DNA of 64,000 nucleotides. Source: Synechococcales cyanobacterium bin31.maxbin.ball.101. GTDB lineage: Bacteria; Cyanobacteriota; Cyanobacteriia; Leptolyngbyales; Leptolyngbyaceae. The translations under genes were made by a program, and so were the position numbers. The notes under the pieces were generated by a model. The model saw only the letters and a program-made list of their open reading frames with translations. It ran no database searches and had not been told where the DNA came from. The DNA is taken from positions 1 through 64,000 of the forward strand of contig JAAFJU010000002.1 of assembly GCA_013298165.1 (NCBI GenBank), in the 5' to 3' direction. Below are positions 4,226 to 19,358 of this stretch, piece by piece; the first letter of the stretch is position 1; each line of letters starts with the position of its first letter.

Positions 4226-4483
4226 ATGCCTCCTCGGTGGTCTCGTGTTCCAACCCGTAACGATCCAGATTTTCGTCGCTTAGACGATCGGATGACCTTC
4301 GCAACCCACGTCGCGGCCTTTGTAGCGTTTAACTCGGGGGTCTGGTTTTTTAAATTACTCAAACAATCTGATGCAACCTGGCCGCTGTACTTAACAGCTA
4401 TTTGGGCCGCCATCTTTTTTGGTCATGGGATCTATGTCTTTGTGATTGCGAAATATGAAGATCTCCCTAGTTCGGACGGTTAA
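4226..4483 (+). CDS. 2TM domain-containing small membrane protein
   Basis: About 85 residues. A charged N-terminus (RNDPDFRRLDDRMTFATHVAAF) is followed by two hydrophobic helices at roughly residues 28-45 and 50-73, joined by a short loop. The pattern R-x-D-F-x-x-H-x-x-x-F and the second helix W-x-x-x-F-x-x-H match the 2TM domain (PF13239) family of small bacterial membrane proteins. ATG 4226 is preferred to the in-frame TTG 4214. It lies three bases ahead of the next gene, suggesting one transcript. Function is unknown. Confidence 0.75.
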   Translation: MPPRWSRVPTRNDPDFRRLDDRMTFATHVAAFVAFNSGVWFFKLLKQSDATWPLYLTAIWAAIFFGHGIYVFVIAKYEDLPSSDG

Positions 4484-4486
4484 GCT

Positions 4487-4786
4487 ATGAACGTTAATCA
4501 AGTGGTCGAGCAACTCGCCGCAGATATCGGCGATCGGGTTTACATCGATGTAGCAAAGTGGCACTTGTATCTCAAAGATGCCAAGTTACATACGGGGCTT
4601 GCTGAATCCTTTTTACCGATGTGCGAGTCCGGGAAAATCGATGAAACCGCTGTCAAAACCACGTTGGCTGGGGTCAAAGTCAAACTCGGCGGCGGCAAAC
4701 AAGAATTGTCGCTTGCTGACTTGATTCCCGCTGCTGTTGTCGGCGATTTGGTCCGAATCTTAGAGGACTGCGCTCGATCGCTTTAA
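4487..4786 (+). CDS. DUF3181 family protein
   Basis: A 99-residue soluble protein. It begins V-x-Q-L-A-x-x-I-G-D-x-V-Y-I-D-V-A-K-W-H-L-Y-L, diagnostic of the DUF3181 family found in cyanobacteria and plastid-bearing eukaryotes. The start is an ATG three bases after the stop of the 2TM gene, so they are probably co-transcribed. The function is not known. Confidence 0.85.
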   Translation: MNVNQVVEQLAADIGDRVYIDVAKWHLYLKDAKLHTGLAESFLPMCESGKIDETAVKTTLAGVKVKLGGGKQELSLADLIPAAVVGDLVRILEDCARSL

Positions 4787-4802
4787 CCCGATCGAACTCC
4801 CA

Positions 4803-4921
4803 GCCGGACTTCGACTCCGCTCAGTCCTCTAAATCTCTAGCCGGACTTCGACTCCGCTCAGTCCTCTAGACCCCGAGTCGAGGGCTGAGCGGAGTCGTAG
4901 TTTACGTCCTTAGGGACTAGC
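4803..4921. repeat. Cluster of three inverted-repeat copies between convergent genes, including a long form
   Basis: Two head-to-tail copies of CCGGACTTCGACTCCGCTCAG (4803-4829 and 4840-4867) are followed by an inverted copy at 4878-4900. The last carries an extra downstream segment (GTAG...ACGTCC...GGACTAGCCC) that recurs at 62391-62421. The C-terminal codons and the stop of the minus-strand epimerase (4910) lie in this extension. Confidence 0.85.
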
Positions 4922-5968
4922 CCGTTTCACCCCAAGCCCCGGACGATCGCTCGGAATCAGTCGTCCGTGGACTAGGGTTGCACCTTCAAAGGGATCATTG
5001 GTGAGATTTAAATGGCTATCGAGATCGAGGTGATCCGCCAGCGGAGCTAAGTGAGCTAGTGCCGTATTCATTAACGTACTGTCCGAATAGCAGCCAAACA
5101 TGACTTTCAACCCGTGAGCGCGGGCGGTGTGAATCATTTTGATCGCTTCACTGAGACCGCCGGATTTATTGAGCTTGATATTGATCCCATGGACCCGATC
5201 GCTCAACGCTGGAATATCTTGGCTCGTCCAACAACTCTCATCGGCAAAAATGGGTAGCGGCGATCGCTCATACAGCGGCAGCAAATCTTTTTCTAATCCA
5301 GGGGCGATCGGTTGCTCGATGTAGGTCACACCCTGCTCTGCTAGCCAATCCGCCATATGCAACGCCTGGGACAGATCCCAGCCGCCATTGGCATCGATAC
5401 TAATGGACTGAATCCGGGGTGCGGTTGCCTTCACTGCTGTGAACATGGCTTTGTCGGCTTCAATGCCCAGGGGCGATCCCAGTTTGACTTTCAACACCTG
5501 AAGCTCGGGGATCTGAGTCATCCAGTCGCGGGTGCGGGTTTGGGCGGCGGCGGGTGAGCTGATGCCGATCGTCACCGCCGTGGGGTGAATTCGATCGCAG
5601 TCCAGCCCCAAGATCGCATACAGCGGCAAATTTAGCGCCTTCCCAAACCAGTCATACAGGGCTAAATCTAAGCCAGACCTAGCCGCAGAGGGCAGTGCTA
5701 TATCCAACCCATCTAACAAACTCTCGATTTTTTGGCGTTCGGTGGGATGGTAGGGCTGGAGGAGGGGGGCCACCTTCTGGAGGGCGCGGGCGATGTCGTC
5801 TGTGGTTTGGGTTTGGGTGCCGATGCTGAACGGTGAGGCTTCTCCCCAGCCTTCAATGCCATCATGCTCCACCCGCACAAAAAGATTGGTACTTTGCGCT
5901 GTGGTGCCCCGGCTGATGGTTAAGGCAACGCGCTTTTGAACGGTGAAGGTCTGGAGATGGATTTTCAT
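4910..5968 (-). CDS. Dipeptide epimerase (L-Ala-D/L-Glu epimerase type, enolase superfamily)
   Basis: Belongs to the mandelate-racemase/muconate-lactonizing enzyme group. The N-terminal capping domain (W-G-E-A-S-P-F) is followed by the barrel with K-V-K-L-G (catalytic Lys pair), metal ligands in DANGGWD, YIEQP and FADESC, and the second catalytic Lys in INIKLNKSGGLSEA. The DxD-type C-terminal loop DLDSHL is typical of dipeptide epimerases acting on murein-derived dipeptides. ATG 5968 gives 352 residues; an upstream in-frame TTG adds only four. The last residues and stop codon are supplied by an inverted repeat. Exact substrate is inferred. Confidence 0.88.
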   Translation of the reverse strand: MKIHLQTFTVQKRVALTISRGTTAQSTNLFVRVEHDGIEGWGEASPFSIGTQTQTTDDIARALQKVAPLLQPYHPTERQKIESLLDGLDIALPSAARSGLDLALYDWFGKALNLPLYAILGLDCDRIHPTAVTIGISSPAAAQTRTRDWMTQIPELQVLKVKLGSPLGIEADKAMFTAVKATAPRIQSISIDANGGWDLSQALHMADWLAEQGVTYIEQPIAPGLEKDLLPLYERSPLPIFADESCWTSQDIPALSDRVHGINIKLNKSGGLSEAIKMIHTARAHGLKVMFGCYSDSTLMNTALAHLAPLADHLDLDSHLNLTNDPFEGATLVHGRLIPSDRPGLGVKRASP

Positions 5969-10252: not shown

Positions 10253-11302
10253 CTATTTCCTGAGTTTCTCGAATAACTGAAGTTGTCGATTGGGGGATTC
10301 AATCATGACAGGCTGATTAAACAAGATGCGCTGATAGATTTCCATCCAGTCTTCACTGGAATCTTGATCGGATAAAAACCGAAATGAGGAAGCAGCTAAA
10401 TATTGTCGATCGGATTCAAAGGCTAGCCAATGACGTTTTTCAATATCTGCGATCGATCCTGTTGTATTCGATCCCGCAAAAATATCTAAAACCACATCTC
10501 CAGGATCTGTTAAAAATCGAATAAAAAACTCCGGTAACTTACTGGGAAAGCGGGCTGGATGGGGTTTAATATCGAGTGCTTTACAGGCTCGAAGATATAG
10601 ACTATTGGATTCTGAATTGGAAATTTGCAGTAGATTAGAGGGGATTGCACCTCCATTATTCTTACTGAAATTAGCACTGATGTCATGCCCAGAAGGGCGT
10701 TTCTTCGGGTCGTAAAACTTCTCTGGATCGTCCAAGAGCTTTTTCATTCGATCGCTATACTCTGTCAAAACGTTCGTTACATCAGACTTCGGAAATTCAG
10801 ATTTACTAAACCACCAAACCGTATTTACAGAATCTTTGGCTCGAATTTTACGCTTGTTCACCCACTCGATCGGACTCGGTAATTTGGAAGGATTAAACCA
10901 ATAGAAATCCTCAGCTAAAAAGAATCCGATCTCGTCACAAAAGTGAATTGGAATACGAAAATTATATAAACTACGGACAGGCTTACCCTTCTCATAGGCC
11001 CCACCTAAATCCAACACAAAACTTCCATCAGGCTTCAACTTCTGATAGACAACTGTCGCAAATTCACTCAACCATTGCACATAGTTTGCTTGATTTTGAT
11101 TGCCATACTCCTTTTCCCGCTGGAGTGCAAAGGGCGGACTTGTTAATACCAAATTAATACTCTCATCCGGAAGCTTCTTCAATAATGCCAAAGAATCTCC
11201 CAGATAAGCCGCACCCAACTGCGTCCGATAGGCAGGTGCTACACCGATTTTGTTGAGGTCGATCGGGAAATCAATCTGCAATGGAAGGGTCTGGGTAGGC
11301 AT
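10253..11302 (-). CDS. pvuIIM-like: PvuII-type DNA (cytosine-N4) methyltransferase
   Basis: 349 residues with beta-class motif order: catalytic motif IV TSPPF at residues 54-58 comes first, and the AdoMet-binding motif FAGSNTTG (275-282) lies near the C-terminus. Long stretches (FYWFNPSKLPSPIEWVNKRK, NTVWWFSK, NLLQISNSES, HPARFP-KLPEFFIR) match what I recall of M.PvuII, which makes N4-methylcytosine in CAGCTG. It is divergent from the controller and endonuclease genes, the same arrangement as the PvuII system, and has probable operator boxes in the spacer. Specificity for CAGCTG is inferred from similarity. Confidence 0.93.
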   Translation of the reverse strand: MPTQTLPLQIDFPIDLNKIGVAPAYRTQLGAAYLGDSLALLKKLPDESINLVLTSPPFALQREKEYGNQNQANYVQWLSEFATVVYQKLKPDGSFVLDLGGAYEKGKPVRSLYNFRIPIHFCDEIGFFLAEDFYWFNPSKLPSPIEWVNKRKIRAKDSVNTVWWFSKSEFPKSDVTNVLTEYSDRMKKLLDDPEKFYDPKKRPSGHDISANFSKNNGGAIPSNLLQISNSESNSLYLRACKALDIKPHPARFPSKLPEFFIRFLTDPGDVVLDIFAGSNTTGSIADIEKRHWLAFESDRQYLAASSFRFLSDQDSSEDWMEIYQRILFNQPVMIESPNRQLQLFEKLRK

Positions 11303-11319
11303 ATCTTCTCCAAAATGCT

Positions 11320-11363
11320 ACTTATAGGCTGTAGACCTATAGTCATCATTTTTTAATTATAAG
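11320..11363 (+). promoter_or_regulatory. C-box operator pair and controller promoter of the PvuII-type system
   Basis: Between the divergent methylase (start 11302) and controller (start 11389) lies CTTATAGGC-TGTAG-ACCTATAGTC (11320-11344): two adjacent imperfect palindromes around TATAG, joined by TGTAG, like the tandem C-boxes of PvuII-group controllers. A -10-like TATAAG follows at 11358-11363. In known systems C protein dimers bind here to activate then repress the C-R transcript, delaying endonuclease synthesis. Confidence 0.75.
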
Positions 11364-11388
11364 ATGTGATGTCCAATTTTTAAAACCT

Positions 11389-11610
11389 GTGTTGTCCAAC
11401 GCTCGAACTCTATTTGCAAAGCGATTGAAAGAGCTTCGTCAATCCAGAGGATTCTCCCAGGAGTCCCTGGCCGATCGTGCTGGTTTACATCGAACCTATG
11501 TTGGTTCGGTTGAGCGGGCAGAGCGCAATGTTTCGATCGACAATATGGAACGAATTGCTCAGGCACTAGAGGTTGACATTGCTGAACTTCTACGGAGCGA
11601 TCGTGAATGA
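11389..11610 (+). CDS. pvuIIC-like: Controller (C) protein of the restriction-modification system
   Basis: 73 residues. It is an all-helical HTH_3/Xre protein: [51 protein letters not shown]. The [14 protein letters not shown] recognition segment is typical of restriction controllers. The start is GTG 11389 or the adjacent TTG 11392; there is no ATG, so the exact start is uncertain. It overlaps the endonuclease start by four bases (ATGA), so C and R are translationally coupled. It should autoregulate through the boxes at 11320-11344. Confidence 0.92.
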
Positions 11611-12104
11611 ATTCTCATCCAGATAAAGTGATTCTTGACGAACTCTTTCCCTATATCCAGCGGTATCAAGATTTAGCCTTAAAACATGGCATTAATGATA
11701 TTTTTCAAGATAATGGTGGGAAAATTTTACAGGTATTACTGACGATCGGTTTAGAAAATATTCCAGGTCGGGAAGGTAATGATGCAAAAGATTCAGAAGG
11801 CAATGAATTCGAACTAAAATCTCTTAATATTGCTTTAACTAAGAGTTTCTCAACGCACCATCATATTAATCCTCGAATTATTGAGAAATACCGTCAGGTT
11901 GATTGGATCTTTGCAGTCTATCGGGGAATTAATCTTCTATCCATATATAAGCTGACACCTGTTGCTTTGGAATATTTCTATCAACGCTGGGAAGAAAAGT
12001 GGCATGAGAATGGTGGTAAAGATATCAACAACCCTAAAATTCCACTCAAATATGTGACGGAAAATGGAGAAATGCTGTACTCGGCTGATATAGGTTTGAC
12101 ATAG
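11607..12104 (+). CDS. pvuIIR-like: PvuII-type restriction endonuclease
   Basis: 165 residues, very like R.PvuII (157 residues): [41 protein letters not shown] and [13 protein letters not shown] are shared. The active-site residues fall at Asp59, Glu69 and Lys71, one position shifted from PvuII Asp58-Glu68-Lys70, and the FSTHHH segment that reads the CAGCTG site is intact. The reading frame is complete, so the enzyme is probably active. The C-terminus is about seven residues longer because the frame runs into an 11-bp tandem repeat that supplies the stop codon. Confidence 0.95.
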
Positions 12105-14385: not shown

Positions 14386-14931
14386 TTACTTCTTCTCAAC
14401 GCCGCAATAGGTATTGAACTCAGTGGCGACTGCCTTTTCATCTTTATCGATCGTCTCTAGGGCTGCTGCCGATTTCTGCAAGTCCTTGAGAGAAGATTCG
14501 ATCAGTTTTTTGCCCGCTTCATTGGCTTCCACCGTCGTGAACTTGCCCAGGATATCGGCAATTTCGGTCAACGATTTAGAAGCGCCAGAGTAGATGGTCG
14601 CTGCCCGATCGCGGTAGCCCACGAGCTTTTCATCTTTTAGGTCAACGGCCTTGACGCTGGTGACGAAGCCGTCCAGTTCTCCCACGAGGGTCTTCACTTT
14701 CTCAGACCCTTGCTTTGAAACTTTGCGGAAATCTTCAATGGTTTTGACCTTGCCGCCTTGGGGACTCATTTCCTTACCCACTTCCTCGAACTTCTTACCG
14801 AGTCCAGACGCTTTGTTGATCTGGCTAGAAAGCGCATTACATTGAGCCACCTTGGTGGGACCACAGGCCGTTAGAGTAGACCCGGCAAAGGTGACAACAG
14901 CGAGAGTTTGGACGATCGAGCGGATTTTCAT
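14386..14931 (-). CDS. Cyanobacterial lipoprotein of unknown function (copy A)
   Basis: 181 residues. The signal peptide ends in the lipobox LTAC at about residue 23, so the mature protein should be lipid-anchored. The rest is helical, charged and periplasmic, starting VAQCNALSSQINKASGLGKKFEEV and containing DEKLVGYRDRAATIYSGASKSL, then a late Cys in TYCGVEKK. The second lipoprotein at 18427-19149 shares QCN-L...IN, a K-L-(I/V)-G-(Y/V) segment and a C-terminal Cys, indicating paralogues. The two bracket a tandem ATPase pair on the same strand. No function is known. Confidence 0.75.
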   Translation of the reverse strand: MKIRSIVQTLAVVTFAGSTLTACGPTKVAQCNALSSQINKASGLGKKFEEVGKEMSPQGGKVKTIEDFRKVSKQGSEKVKTLVGELDGFVTSVKAVDLKDEKLVGYRDRAATIYSGASKSLTEIADILGKFTTVEANEAGKKLIESSLKDLQKSAAALETIDKDEKAVATEFNTYCGVEKK

Positions 14932-15129
14932 GAGTTCATTACCATGGCTTGACGAGTGATGAAGGCGCAGGGACTCTCTGAGATTCAGTGAGTCCTTGTA
15001 AAATTCTCCTTTAGAGAAAGAGTACCCCTACTATTGATGATCATATCGTAGGGATTTGAAATCCTCCGTAGGGAGTATTCATCTTACTTTATATTCTAAA
15101 ACTTAGAATTTCATCGCTCACGCTCGGAC

Positions 15130-16680
15130 TCATGCTCGGACGATTGTAATGCTTCTTCCTTGGGGGCTAGTCGCGAGTTCCGTAGAGGCTCGATCGGCGA
15201 TCGGCTCGGCATTGGCGCGTCGATCGAAAATCACCAGCCAACCTGAATCTAAGTCTAATCGTGCTAAATAGCCATCCAATTGGTCTAACCCTGCTGTCTT
15301 TGGATCAGCGCTTTTATCTCGCCAAACTTTCAATTCAATTCCCAGGGTCACATCTCCATATTGCAGACATAAATCCATTCGATCGCGTCCGATCGCATAT
15401 TCCCGTTCCAATCTGCCACCGCCATTAATCACCCGGTGCAAGAATGCCATCAAAACCAAATGAGGCGCGATTTCATGGTAAGCCGCACTATTTAACAGAG
15501 CTTCTCCATGTTGCCGCCAAAAGTTTAAGAATGCCGTCAGGAGAGCCTCAGTATTCAGCGGCCCATCACCATTGAGCCAAGTGGGGCTAATGTGCGGCAA
15601 GCTGTCCTGTGGACCTTGTGCCAAAACTCGGGGCAGAACTTCTCGGTAAATGGGATTTGCGATCGTCATTCCACCTGCGGGATCCCGTTTGAGTAAGCCG
15701 AGGTCAATGAGATATTGCCGATCGTCATTGGAGGTTTCGCCTAGCGATCGTCCCGCCAACATGGGTTCGATGATGGCTTTGACCCGATTCTCTCTTAATC
15801 GTTCGGCAAGGCTATCGAGGTGCGTGTCTTGACGACGAATGAGAATTTCTTTGGCTTGATTGATATGGTCGGGTGTGATTGCAATGGTGGGGTCTTCCAC
15901 GAGTTCTTCAACGATTTCTTTGGCGATCGCATTGACGAGCCAGGGCTGTCCTTGGGTTAGGTCAAAGGCCAGATTGACGGCATGATCAGTAAAAACTTGT
16001 CCGGTGTCGCTGGTGTGTTGTTGATAGAGTTCTCTAACTTCGTCTAAATTGAAATTTCGGAGTGTAATCGATTTTGCTTTGATATTAAAAGGGCTAGCAG
16101 TATTGAGTCGTTCGCTGCCACCAGATGCCACTTTGTAATCCCGCACATCTCGTAATCCGATGAGTCCGATCGATTGAGGAAATCCGTCGGGTCGGTTTGG
16201 AAAGCCACTCCGAAGCTGTCTCAGGACTGAAATTAGGGCTTCATCTTGTAAGGCATCAATTTCATCGATCAGTAATACCAGAGGCTTAGGTAGACTTCTT
16301 GCCCAATCTGCCAAGCCACCTTGAATCCTGGCCCCCGCAGCGGTATCACTCCATGTGGGAGGATGGTATTCCATGGGTAGTTCATATTGTGCCGATTGAC
16401 GCCAACTGTCCAGGATTGCGGCTTCTGCCTGCCCTGGATTATGTCGAAAGGCAGCACCCACCTCAGTGGAGACGATCAATGCGATATATTGACCGCTTTC
16501 CGTCAAACTTTTCGCCAGTGCTAACATGGCAGTGGTTTTGCCTGTTTGTCTTGGGGCGTGGAAGACAAAATAATTTTGCTGGGCGATCAGGCGCGTCAAG
16601 CTCGGGAGCCGATCGCCCGTGGGGAGCATATAGTGAATGTCGGATTTACAAGGTCCGGCGGTGTTAAACCAGCGTTGCAT
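15130..16680 (-). CDS. AAA-like ATPase with C-terminal PD-(D/E)XK nuclease-like domain (copy A)
   Basis: 516 residues. Walker A APRQTGKT (42-49) and Walker B LVLLIDEID (134-142) are intact in the N-terminal ATPase domain. A helical lid region (250-340) and a winged-helix-like segment with MTIANPIYREVLPRVL follow. The C-terminus reads GRDRMDLCLQYGDVTLGIELKVW: Asp436, Glu449 and Lys451 fit the PD-(D/E)XK active site of the DUF1703/PDDEXK_9 group. Similar ATP-binding proteins are common in cyanobacteria without known role; defence or signalling is possible. A close paralogue of identical length lies 95 bases upstream in the same orientation. Confidence 0.85.
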   Translation of the reverse strand: MQRWFNTAGPCKSDIHYMLPTGDRLPSLTRLIAQQNYFVFHAPRQTGKTTAMLALAKSLTESGQYIALIVSTEVGAAFRHNPGQAEAAILDSWRQSAQYELPMEYHPPTWSDTAAGARIQGGLADWARSLPKPLVLLIDEIDALQDEALISVLRQLRSGFPNRPDGFPQSIGLIGLRDVRDYKVASGGSERLNTASPFNIKAKSITLRNFNLDEVRELYQQHTSDTGQVFTDHAVNLAFDLTQGQPWLVNAIAKEIVEELVEDPTIAITPDHINQAKEILIRRQDTHLDSLAERLRENRVKAIIEPMLAGRSLGETSNDDRQYLIDLGLLKRDPAGGMTIANPIYREVLPRVLAQGPQDSLPHISPTWLNGDGPLNTEALLTAFLNFWRQHGEALLNSAAYHEIAPHLVLMAFLHRVINGGGRLEREYAIGRDRMDLCLQYGDVTLGIELKVWRDKSADPKTAGLDQLDGYLARLDLDSGWLVIFDRRANAEPIADRASTELATSPQGRSITIVRA

Positions 16681-16775
16681 TGTAGGGGAGGTTGAGGGGA
16701 TGGGTCTCTACAGATTCTATACGTTATTCGTCCTCAGTTCAGTTCTTGAGTCGTTTCAGACTAATCAAGCATCGT

Positions 16776-18326
16776 TCAGGCTCGGACGATCGTAATGTTT
16801 CTTCCTTGTGGGCTAATCGCGAGTTCTGTCCGAACCCGATCGGCGATCGGTTCGGCATTTGAGCGTCGATCGAAAATCACGAGCCAGCCTGAATCTAATT
16901 CTAATCGTGCTAAGTAGCCATCTAATTGTTCTAGCCCTGCTGTCTTTGGATCAGCGCTTTTATCTCGCCAAACTTTCAATTCAATTCCCAGGGTCACATC
17001 CCCATATTGCAAACATAAATCCATCCGATCGCGACCGATCGCATATTCTCGTTCCAAACTACCGCCACCATTAATGACTCGATGCAAAAATGCCATTAAA
17101 ACCAGATGAGGCGCGATTTCATGGTAGGCGGCACTATTGAGCAACGGCTCTCCATGTTGTCGCCAAAAACTCAGGAAAGCGGTTAGGAGCGCGTCTGTAT
17201 TTAAAGTTCCTTCAGGGGTTAGCCAAGTTGGCATAATCTGCGGAAGAGAGGCGGAAGGCGTGACGGTGAGAACTCGGGGTAGGACTTCGCGATAAATTGG
17301 GTTGGCGATCGTAATTCCCCCTAAAGGGTCCATCCGACACAGTCCTAAATCCAAAACAAATCGAATATCGTCGTTCGGAACATTGCCTAATTCCTGTCCG
17401 GCTAGCATGGGTTCAATAATGGCTTTGACCCGATCTTCTCGCAGTCGTTCCGCTAGGCTATCGAGGTGCGTGTCTTGACGACGAATGAGAATTTCTTTGG
17501 CTTGATTGATATGGTCGGGTGTGATTGCAATGGTGGGGTCTTCCACGAGTTCTTCTACGATTTCTTTGGCGATTGCATTGACGAGCCAGGGCTGACCTTG
17601 GGTTAGGTCAAAAGCTAGATTGACGGCATGATCGGTAAAAACTTGTCCGGTGTCGCTGGTGTGTTGTTGATAGAGTTCTCTGACTTCTTCTAAATTGAAA
17701 TTTCGGAGTGTAATCGATTTTGCTTTGATATTAAAAGGGCTAGCAGTATTGAGTCTTTCGCTGCCACCAGATGCCACTTTGTAATCCCGCACATCCCGTA
17801 ATCCGATGAGACCGATCGATTGGGGGAATGCATTGGGACGGGTGGGAAACCCATTACGAAGCTGCCTCAGGACTGAAATGAGGGTTTCATCTTGCAAGGC
17901 ATCAATTTCATCGATTAGCAGGACTAATGGCTTCGGTAAGCTAAGTGCCCAATTTGATAATCCGACTTGAATCCGTGCTCCTGCATTCGCATCACTCCAA
18001 GCGGGAGGATAAAACGCCTCAGGCAGTTGAAATTCAGCCGCTCGTCGCCAAGTATCGAGCATGGCACGTTCGGCTTGCCCTGGATCGTGCCGGAAAGCCG
18101 CCCCGACTTCGGCAGAAACCATCAGGGCGATATACTCCCCACTTTGGGTCAGCTTTTGCGCCAAGGTCAGCATTGCAGTGGTTTTGCCTGTTTGTCTTGG
18201 GGCGTGGAAGACAAAATAATTTTGCTGGGCGATCAGGCGCGTCAAGCTGGGGAGCCGATCGCCCGTGGGGAGCATGTAGTGAATGTCGGATTTACAAGGT
18301 CCGGTGGTATTAAACCAGCGTTGCAT
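16776..18326 (-). CDS. AAA-like ATPase with C-terminal PD-(D/E)XK nuclease-like domain (copy B)
   Basis: 516 residues, the same architecture as the downstream copy: Walker A APRQTGKT, Walker B LVLLIDEID and nuclease-like Asp436/Glu449/Lys451. The first 60 residues, residues 165-300 and the last 130 are nearly identical between copies. Residues about 60-130 and 305-380 differ clearly, including the segment after Walker A and the ATPase/nuclease linker. The nucleotide sequence is almost identical at 17480-17800 versus 15835-16155. This mosaic implies duplication with later gene conversion or selection on specific parts. Confidence 0.85.
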   Translation of the reverse strand: MQRWFNTTGPCKSDIHYMLPTGDRLPSLTRLIAQQNYFVFHAPRQTGKTTAMLTLAQKLTQSGEYIALMVSAEVGAAFRHDPGQAERAMLDTWRRAAEFQLPEAFYPPAWSDANAGARIQVGLSNWALSLPKPLVLLIDEIDALQDETLISVLRQLRNGFPTRPNAFPQSIGLIGLRDVRDYKVASGGSERLNTASPFNIKAKSITLRNFNLEEVRELYQQHTSDTGQVFTDHAVNLAFDLTQGQPWLVNAIAKEIVEELVEDPTIAITPDHINQAKEILIRRQDTHLDSLAERLREDRVKAIIEPMLAGQELGNVPNDDIRFVLDLGLCRMDPLGGITIANPIYREVLPRVLTVTPSASLPQIMPTWLTPEGTLNTDALLTAFLSFWRQHGEPLLNSAAYHEIAPHLVLMAFLHRVINGGGSLEREYAIGRDRMDLCLQYGDVTLGIELKVWRDKSADPKTAGLEQLDGYLARLELDSGWLVIFDRRSNAEPIADRVRTELAISPQGRNITIVRA

Positions 18327-18426
18327 GGGAAAGGCACGGGGATGGAGATGTCCCTAATTTATCATGCGATTTATCATGCGGGCTGGGAGATTGAAAATCC
18401 CCAGCCTTTGAATCGTTAGGCAATCG

Positions 18427-19149
18427 TTAGGTTTTTGGCATGGGGACATCGCAGGCGGCGCTGACTCGACGCATGATGCTGATTTCTTGGGGTTTGATTT
18501 CTTCATCTAAGTTTTCCATTTCCCGAAGAAACCCTAGAGCTTGGGTCATTTGCGCCATGCGAGCTTTGTGTTCACGTTGCAATCGGGCCATGCGATGGCC
18601 TTCTCCCTCAAATGGGGTTCCCGCAACATCGACGCGGCCATAGTTCATATCCATCTTGAAGGGTTGAGGTGAGGGCGCGATCGAATCACTGCTTGCCACA
18701 GGTGTCGTTTCGCTCATGCTGCCGCCCGATCGCATGGACATTTCAGTAATGCCTGCACCGGGTGCTAACGTTCGGATGGAGTTAATGCCTTTACGGAGGA
18801 TGTTCGATCGTTGGATGTGAAGGAACAGTAGATTGTTTTGGTACACGCCGATGAGCTTGTCGCTAATCTCTTGGTTTTGCAGTTCACTGATTAATGGATC
18901 AACTTCTTGAAGAATTCCTTGCACAGGTGCTGTGATTGCTAGAACCCGTTGATTCAGCTCTGCGGGTGTTTTTGGGGCTTTCTGAGCGGTGGGAATTTTA
19001 AGCTCGGCTGACTTTTTCCAGACGGCATTGATCTTGTTGACGTTTTCGACCAGTTTATTGCACTGAGCTTTTTTCTGAAACGAGCAAGATTGGAGTAACA
19101 GCGTCAGAGACAGGGCGCTGATGGTTAGAACGTTCGATCGTCTTGGCAT
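18427..19149 (-). CDS. Cyanobacterial lipoprotein of unknown function (copy B)
   Basis: About 240 residues from ATG 19149 (MPRRSNVLT...); a start five codons upstream is possible. The signal peptide ends with lipobox LLQSC. The mature part begins SFQKKAQCNKLVENVNKINAVWKK and has SDKLIGVYQNNLLFLHIQRSNIL, matching the pattern of the lipoprotein at 14386-14931. Copy B has an added Ser/Pro-rich middle and a C-terminal helix ending in a Cys (SAACDVPMPK). It is the first gene of the minus-strand block that continues into the two ATPase genes, with 100 bases before the next start. Confidence 0.7.
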   Translation of the reverse strand: MPRRSNVLTISALSLTLLLQSCSFQKKAQCNKLVENVNKINAVWKKSAELKIPTAQKAPKTPAELNQRVLAITAPVQGILQEVDPLISELQNQEISDKLIGVYQNNLLFLHIQRSNILRKGINSIRTLAPGAGITEMSMRSGGSMSETTPVASSDSIAPSPQPFKMDMNYGRVDVAGTPFEGEGHRMARLQREHKARMAQMTQALGFLREMENLDEEIKPQEISIMRRVSAACDVPMPKT

Positions 19150-19358
19150 AGAGATTCCCGGCAATCAGAAGGGCGCTTAAGGGTAAATATTTGACCTATC
19201 CTTCCCAAAAAAGTTCGATTTCTACCATTTTAGTCGGTTCATCCGATCGACTGAGTGAACCCGTTGAGTGCGGTGTGATTCACGATTTCCCTTCCTGGAG
19301 GCTTCGCCAACGTCCCAGTGAAGCGGTAGAGTATACAAGTCCTCTTGCGGCATCTAGC

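Follow-up and report, generated by a model that had tools for sequence, protein, structure and literature searches.

Two genes of equal length lie in tandem on the reverse strand of the window, the 64,000-nucleotide stretch of DNA analyzed here. Copy A (16776..18326, −), the first gene of the pair, encodes a 516-residue protein that combines an AAA+ ATPase, a winged-helix-like domain, and a PD-(D/E)XK nuclease. Copy B (15130..16680, −) follows it, also encodes 516 residues, and aligns with A without gaps at 82.6% nucleotide and 86% amino acid identity. The 95-nt spacer between them (16681..16775, −) has little similarity to the region upstream of A; a possible common element lies near CCATCCCC. 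This layout agrees exactly with the preliminary description of the locus in coordinates, lengths, and spacing. The pair is flanked by two lipoprotein-like genes (14386-14931 and 18427-19164), the second of which is weakly similar to relatives of the first (~27%, E 0.005). Together, A, B, and the 18427-19164 gene occupy a segment of ~4.25 kb (15075..19321) that two congeneric genomes lack at the corresponding ilvA/lipoprotein junction. No match for the 18427-19164 gene turned up in three congeneric genomes, so it may have been gained or lost together with A and B. Neither terminal repeats nor a target duplication was detected at the segment ends, as would mark a transposon or insertion sequence; the longest direct or inverted match between the end zones is 6 nt, where chance alone gives a median of 7 for direct matches. 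A transposon with terminal repeats was thus rejected. About 3 kb from A/B, within a stretch of lower GC content (42%), is a PvuII-type restriction-modification pair (10253-12104). It is composed of an N6_N4 methylase on the reverse strand (10253-11302; N6_N4_Mtase in Pfam at E 4.8e-40) and, on the forward strand, a PvuII endonuclease homologue (11607-12104) that matches PvuII chains in the PDB at E 1e-69 or better.

An AlphaFold2 model built from 54 family members (pLDDT 86.9, pTM 0.80) places Walker A (GKTT, residues 47-50) and Walker B (DEID, 139-142) in an alpha/beta domain with predicted strands at 37-41, 66-71, 134-139, and 170-174. A helical lid follows, which is the arrangement of an AAA+/STAND-like P-loop ATPase. 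The C-terminal domain (codons 401-516; 16779..17126, −, in A and 15133..15480, −, in B) is predicted to run from a helix (405-418) through three strands (422-429; 434-441, bearing D436; 444-453, bearing E449 and K451) to a second helix (461-475, with Q467) and a last strand (479-486). This predicted strand order, with its catalytic residues, is that of a PD-(D/E)XK fold and bears out the assignment made earlier from the sequence. Both copies retain K48, T49/T50, D139, E140, D436, E449, and K451, so the Walker and nuclease motifs are intact, as had been noted. D436, E449, K451, and K48 are conserved in 154 to 156 of 156 full-length relatives; for the Walker and nuclease residues as a whole, the range is 152 to 156 of 156, with mostly conservative changes among the exceptions.

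Divergence between A and B is concentrated in two blocks. The first, V1 (codons 51-140; 17907..18176, −, in A and 16261..16530, −, in B), runs from where the Walker-A helix ends as far as Walker B and in A takes in predicted helices at 82-100 and 118-129. The second, V2 (codons 294-400; 17127..17447, −, in A and 15481..15801, −, in B), covers the winged-helix-like domain and a linker helix; A carries V2 class 6, and B carries V2 class 7. Synonymous divergence (dS) is saturated in both blocks. It drops to 0.095 over codons 1-50 and to 0.155 over codons 169-293, with an intermediate value of 0.75 in codons 141-168. These values match the earlier delineation of diverged blocks at 60-130 and 305-380 set against a conserved N-terminus and a conserved 165-300 block. 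The nuclease end, previously called nearly identical, is so at the protein level (96% amino acid identity) but shows moderate synonymous divergence (dS 0.44 in codons 401-465 and again in 466-516). A further N-terminal position, V0 (codons 11-40; 18207..18296, −, in A), is near-identical between A and B and is replaced in some pairs elsewhere. A and B share identical runs of up to 101 nt, whereas random placement of the differences gives a median longest run of 31 and a 99.9th percentile of 63. Differences at 4-fold degenerate sites alone are also clustered (p < 1e-4; 0 of 10,000 shuffles), and protein-level constraint therefore does not explain the mosaic. Uniform divergence of A and B is ruled out by the clustering and the block-wise dS.

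Different parts of the pair have different histories. Trees from backbone columns recover A and B as sisters (support 100/100), whereas V2 columns reject this pairing (log-likelihood difference 50, p-AU 3.5e-5). The V2 of A groups with class-6 sequences, nearest to one from genome G034, and the class-7 V2 of B recurs in all three of the other full-length copies of its own genome. V1 import is less clear than V2 import in this pair, since the V1 blocks of A and B are mutual closest relatives, joined by a path of 0.46 as against 0.06 on the backbone. No recent cassette donor for either gene was found in their own genome (G000), and the exchange is therefore not recent. The gene conversion proposed in the preliminary description may accordingly have been either import of a cassette or homogenization of the backbone around old cassettes. 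Recombination between copies is itself well supported by the block-tree conflict and, across the family, by block replacement at orthologous loci of two congeneric genomes and in tandem pairs from several genera; for several of these replacements, near-identical candidate donors lie within the same genome.

Matching the proteins to known families gave no formal assignment. In the ATPase region of A and B, Pfam models AAA_35, AAA_16, and AAA_22 match below their cut-offs, and the C-terminus received no Pfam assignment. AAA_35 (PF14516) scores 26.7 bits for A and 24.2 for B against a cut-off of 27; it matches all 54 aligned members over the ATPase region at E <= 0.01 (best 2.7e-10), and, unlike the A and B proteins, the model stops short of a nuclease. 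A profile search of the PDB returned no relevant match. The closest architectural parallel is DUF1703, which joins AAA-ATPase_like (PF09820) to PDDEXK_9 (PF08011) in the order AAA+ domain, helical region, and C-terminal PD-(D/E)XK, according to its description (Knizewski 2007, PMC1913061). The predicted structure of the window proteins has this domain order, and they share with DUF1703 a single polypeptide of ~520 residues, a Q in the second core helix of PD-(D/E)XK, and an arginine-bearing Walker A (RPRRFGKS in DUF1703, APRQTGKT here). However, neither PF09820 nor PF08011 matched A or B in Pfam, and PF08011 had no match in G000. With A and B below the cut-offs for both DUF1703 and AAA_35, we did not file them as members of either. 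A full-length homologue (L208, 27% identical) is likewise below threshold for AAA-ATPase_like (24.7 of 26.1 bits) and PDDEXK_9 (19.9 of 25.5 bits), and through it, the family is loosely connected to the DUF1703 architecture. Canonical DUF1703 genes form a separate set in G042. Profile comparison with three of these proteins alone was not significant, with the nuclease motifs aligned. The G042 cluster (L237, C5:283000-300500) comprises PF08011 genes. Two copies are identical; the third is most divergent around nt 1000-1200 within the gene (40-48% identity), which may point to a comparable variable block.

The family is sporadic in Cyanobacteria. G000 holds A, B, three further full-length copies, and one partial copy at a contig end. 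At E <= 0.001, matches occur in 13 of 58 relatives, a few of these hits being partial and weak, and in at least 37 of 386 cyanobacterial genomes sampled across the phylum, in a search that considered up to three candidates in each genome. Relatives at 60-72% identity are found across the phylum and in Chloroflexi and Myxobacteria, the members from the latter two at 60-65%. Several cyanobacteria carry copies on plasmids. None was found in phage and viral collections, a result that is neutral with respect to defense and led us to reject a phage or viral origin. Some genomes carry many copies. In G278 there are 45 matches in 4.1 Mb, with head-to-tail runs of five and seven genes plus decayed fragments; its congener G103 has 23. 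No clean empty site was found in G103 for the flanks of the G278 arrays. In these two genomes, seven loci (L199, L202, L203, L205, L211, L212, and L217) have near-identical upstream sequences of ~50 nt even at different sites, which suggests that each copy may carry its own promoter along. At L217 (G103, 4246-5787), the copy abuts, at its downstream end, sequence that by eye resembles the 3′ part of psbA, and the G278 counterpart differs; the junction is possibly a recombination or insertion scar. Neighbors of family copies are mostly non-defense genes. A conserved operon partner was rejected because the copies have no conserved neighbor, as was a defense-island location, given that matches to defense models are scattered among the 135 adjacent genes. 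No PADLOC-DB model scored better than E about 0.01 (mad8, E 0.041; PDC-S01, E 0.0086).

Near-identical gene pairs show that the same blocks are replaced throughout the family. At one orthologous locus of G278 and G103 (L199_4271 and L211_4160), only V2 is strongly replaced: identity per 100-nt bin is 61, 48, and 79% in V2, compared with 88-100% in the rest of the gene and 97-100% in the flanks. At another (L195_4493 and L209_4208), only V1 is strongly replaced (80 and 54%, versus 93-99% elsewhere in the gene). One tandem pair in G278 is ~99-100% identical except in V2, and a pair in the nearly complete genome of Sphaerospermopsis kisseleviana NIES-73 (L087_8227/10001) combines a backbone at 98-100% with a V2 at 64%. 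L201_4301/5918 differ mainly in V2, and L037_9391/11054 mainly in V1. For an unbiased scan, we took 87 gene pairs (30 disjoint) whose median 40-codon bin was at least 93% identical and scored any 20-codon window below 75% identity as replaced. Replaced windows fell at codons 11-40 (V0), 61-160 (V1), and 301-390 (V2); adjoining windows (281-310 and 381-410) were replaced in at most 1-2% of pairs, and none of the 87 pairs had replaced windows at codons 151-290 or 401-516. The shorter V0 block is swapped in some lineages only.

Cassettes also reassort. A seven-gene array (L192) contains the V1/V2 combinations (25,29), (25,61), (1,29), (1,61), and (1,68). Each of V1 types 25 and 1 is found with each of V2 types 29 and 61, a four-gamete result that indicates independent reassortment. 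Family-wide, about eight larger V1 classes and four main V2 classes are mixed and common to several genera, and median amino acid conservation is 60% in V2 versus 71-72% in blocks M and C. For several swaps, a cassette copy that is 95-100% identical exists elsewhere in the same genome as a candidate donor. Judging from these sequence comparisons, the architecture and the exchange of cassettes appear practically certain. A diversity-generating retroelement was considered an unlikely source of the variation, as the differences take the form of whole divergent cassettes, synonymous sites included, and not of scattered adenine changes.

The explanation we judge best, and hold with moderate confidence, is that A and B belong to a family of single-gene ATPase-nucleases that is multi-copy, spreads horizontally, and has cassettes diversified by recombination. 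The sequences show that the ATPase core and predicted nuclease remain constant and that V1 and V2 are exchanged as units by homologous recombination, both between paralogues and between strains. Within the AAA+ domain, V1 occupies predicted helices after strand 2, between the two Walker motifs, and V2 is the winged-helix-like domain that joins ATPase to nuclease. The outcome is a combinatorial set of V1 and V2 types in each genome. Together, V1 and V2 may form a surface that recognizes a variable target or trigger; most likely, such recognition would alter the state of the ATPase and then release or aim the PD-(D/E)XK nuclease. The most likely setting would be conflict with phages or mobile DNA, where several specificities per genome may be favored. 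Where replacement occurs, together with the free reassortment of V1 and V2, suggests that the cassettes probably set recognition or partner specificity, in line with the partner or target recognition raised in the preliminary description. We give a role in conflict or defense an even chance. Both cassettes are acidic (median pI 4.7 for V2 and 5.1 for V1 in 156 full-length relatives), a weak argument in favor of a protein ligand or partner over direct recognition of DNA. The small number of main V2 classes, four, speaks against an open-ended target repertoire. The poor PADLOC-DB scores, the mostly non-defense neighbors, and the lack of a conserved partner gene also weigh against the explanation.

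Acidic and probably protein-facing surfaces, few V2 classes, and many paralogues per cell (the 45 matches of G278) would also suit V1 and V2 as self-association surfaces whose diversity prevents dead hetero-oligomers among co-expressed copies. Within one array, however, copies coincide in V1 or V2 type, and in some cases in both, and so would not be insulated from one another; free V1/V2 reassortment also argues against contact between V1 and V2 of different subunits. We regard this explanation as unlikely. Slightly less probable still is neutral concerted evolution, in which conversion homogenizes copies and its tracts stop at heterologous V1 and V2, with no selection for diversity. The conserved segments that flank each cassette are where crossovers must fall, the backbone is homogenized within arrays, and conservation of V2 is just moderately below that of M and C. 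Against this, codons 151-290 and 401-516 are never replaced among the 87 pairs, intact cassettes have moved at otherwise near-identical loci, and V2 classes are common to several genera and reassort with V1.

That the ATPase-nuclease drives its own homing-like or transposon-like spread, with the arrays as by-products, is doubtful. Such a selfish gene would account for the sporadic and multi-copy distribution, interphylum transfer, plasmid copies, decayed fragments, and the junction lacking the window segment in two congeneric genomes. Yet that segment contains another gene and has no terminal repeats or target duplication, many sites are common to G278 and G103, no boundary sequence is conserved across genomes, and self-spread fails to explain swaps confined to V0, V1, and V2. 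Finally, an assembly artifact of collapsed repeats, conceivable for repeated copies in the 356-contig assembly of G000, is extremely improbable for the window and largely refuted for the family, given that the longest identical A/B stretch is only 101 nt and that the same mosaic is seen in genomes that are single-contig or nearly complete (G278, G103, and S. kisseleviana NIES-73).

Avs-type STAND NTPase nucleases hold an NTPase and a PD-(D/E)XK effector in one chain, as is predicted here, and have a large C-terminal sensor domain. The 516-residue window protein has none, and any sensing would have to use V0, V1, or V2. In its evolutionary pattern, the family works like HsdS, the specificity subunit of Type I restriction systems, for which exchange of target recognition domains is described in Furuta 2011 (PMC3077401). 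HsdS also has two variable blocks within conserved segments that are exchanged and recombined independently, as the four combinations in L192 demonstrate for our family. The likeness is one of working and not of homology: the variable blocks here are inside an ATPase-nuclease, and no methylase partner was found. For DUF1703, expansion of paralogues, recombination within genes, and copies on plasmids have been reported in Cardinium and Simkania. Siozios 2019 (PMC6387759) described 25 DUF1703 paralogues in Cardinium cCpun, with intragenic recombination and no known function. Fixed, independently reassorting V1 and V2 cassettes are not described for DUF1703 in the accessible parts of these sources. 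Multi-copy, recombining ATPase-nucleases are thus already known; in our coverage of the literature, which is incomplete and does not prove novelty, we found no account of a fixed, independently reassorting cassette structure or of the family as cassette-swapping.

Multi-copy AAA+/PD-(D/E)XK proteins have been on record since 2007, with no function given in the literature we found. Cassette exchange makes the role of these ATPase-nucleases directly testable: the fixed cassettes indicate which residues are likely to determine specificity, and gene pairs differing only in V1 or only in V2 are natural experiments. Recombination between paralogues would then join HsdS domain exchange and diversity-generating retroelements as a means by which conflict proteins are diversified in bacteria. 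More tentatively, and with less confidence than in the family-level reading above, the shuffled V0, V1, and V2 blocks may constitute a combinatorial repertoire of immune nucleases, each encoded by one gene and numbering up to dozens in a genome, that renews target recognition in Cyanobacteria and some Chloroflexi and Myxobacteria. If true, the family would represent a bacterial immune repertoire built through domain shuffling.
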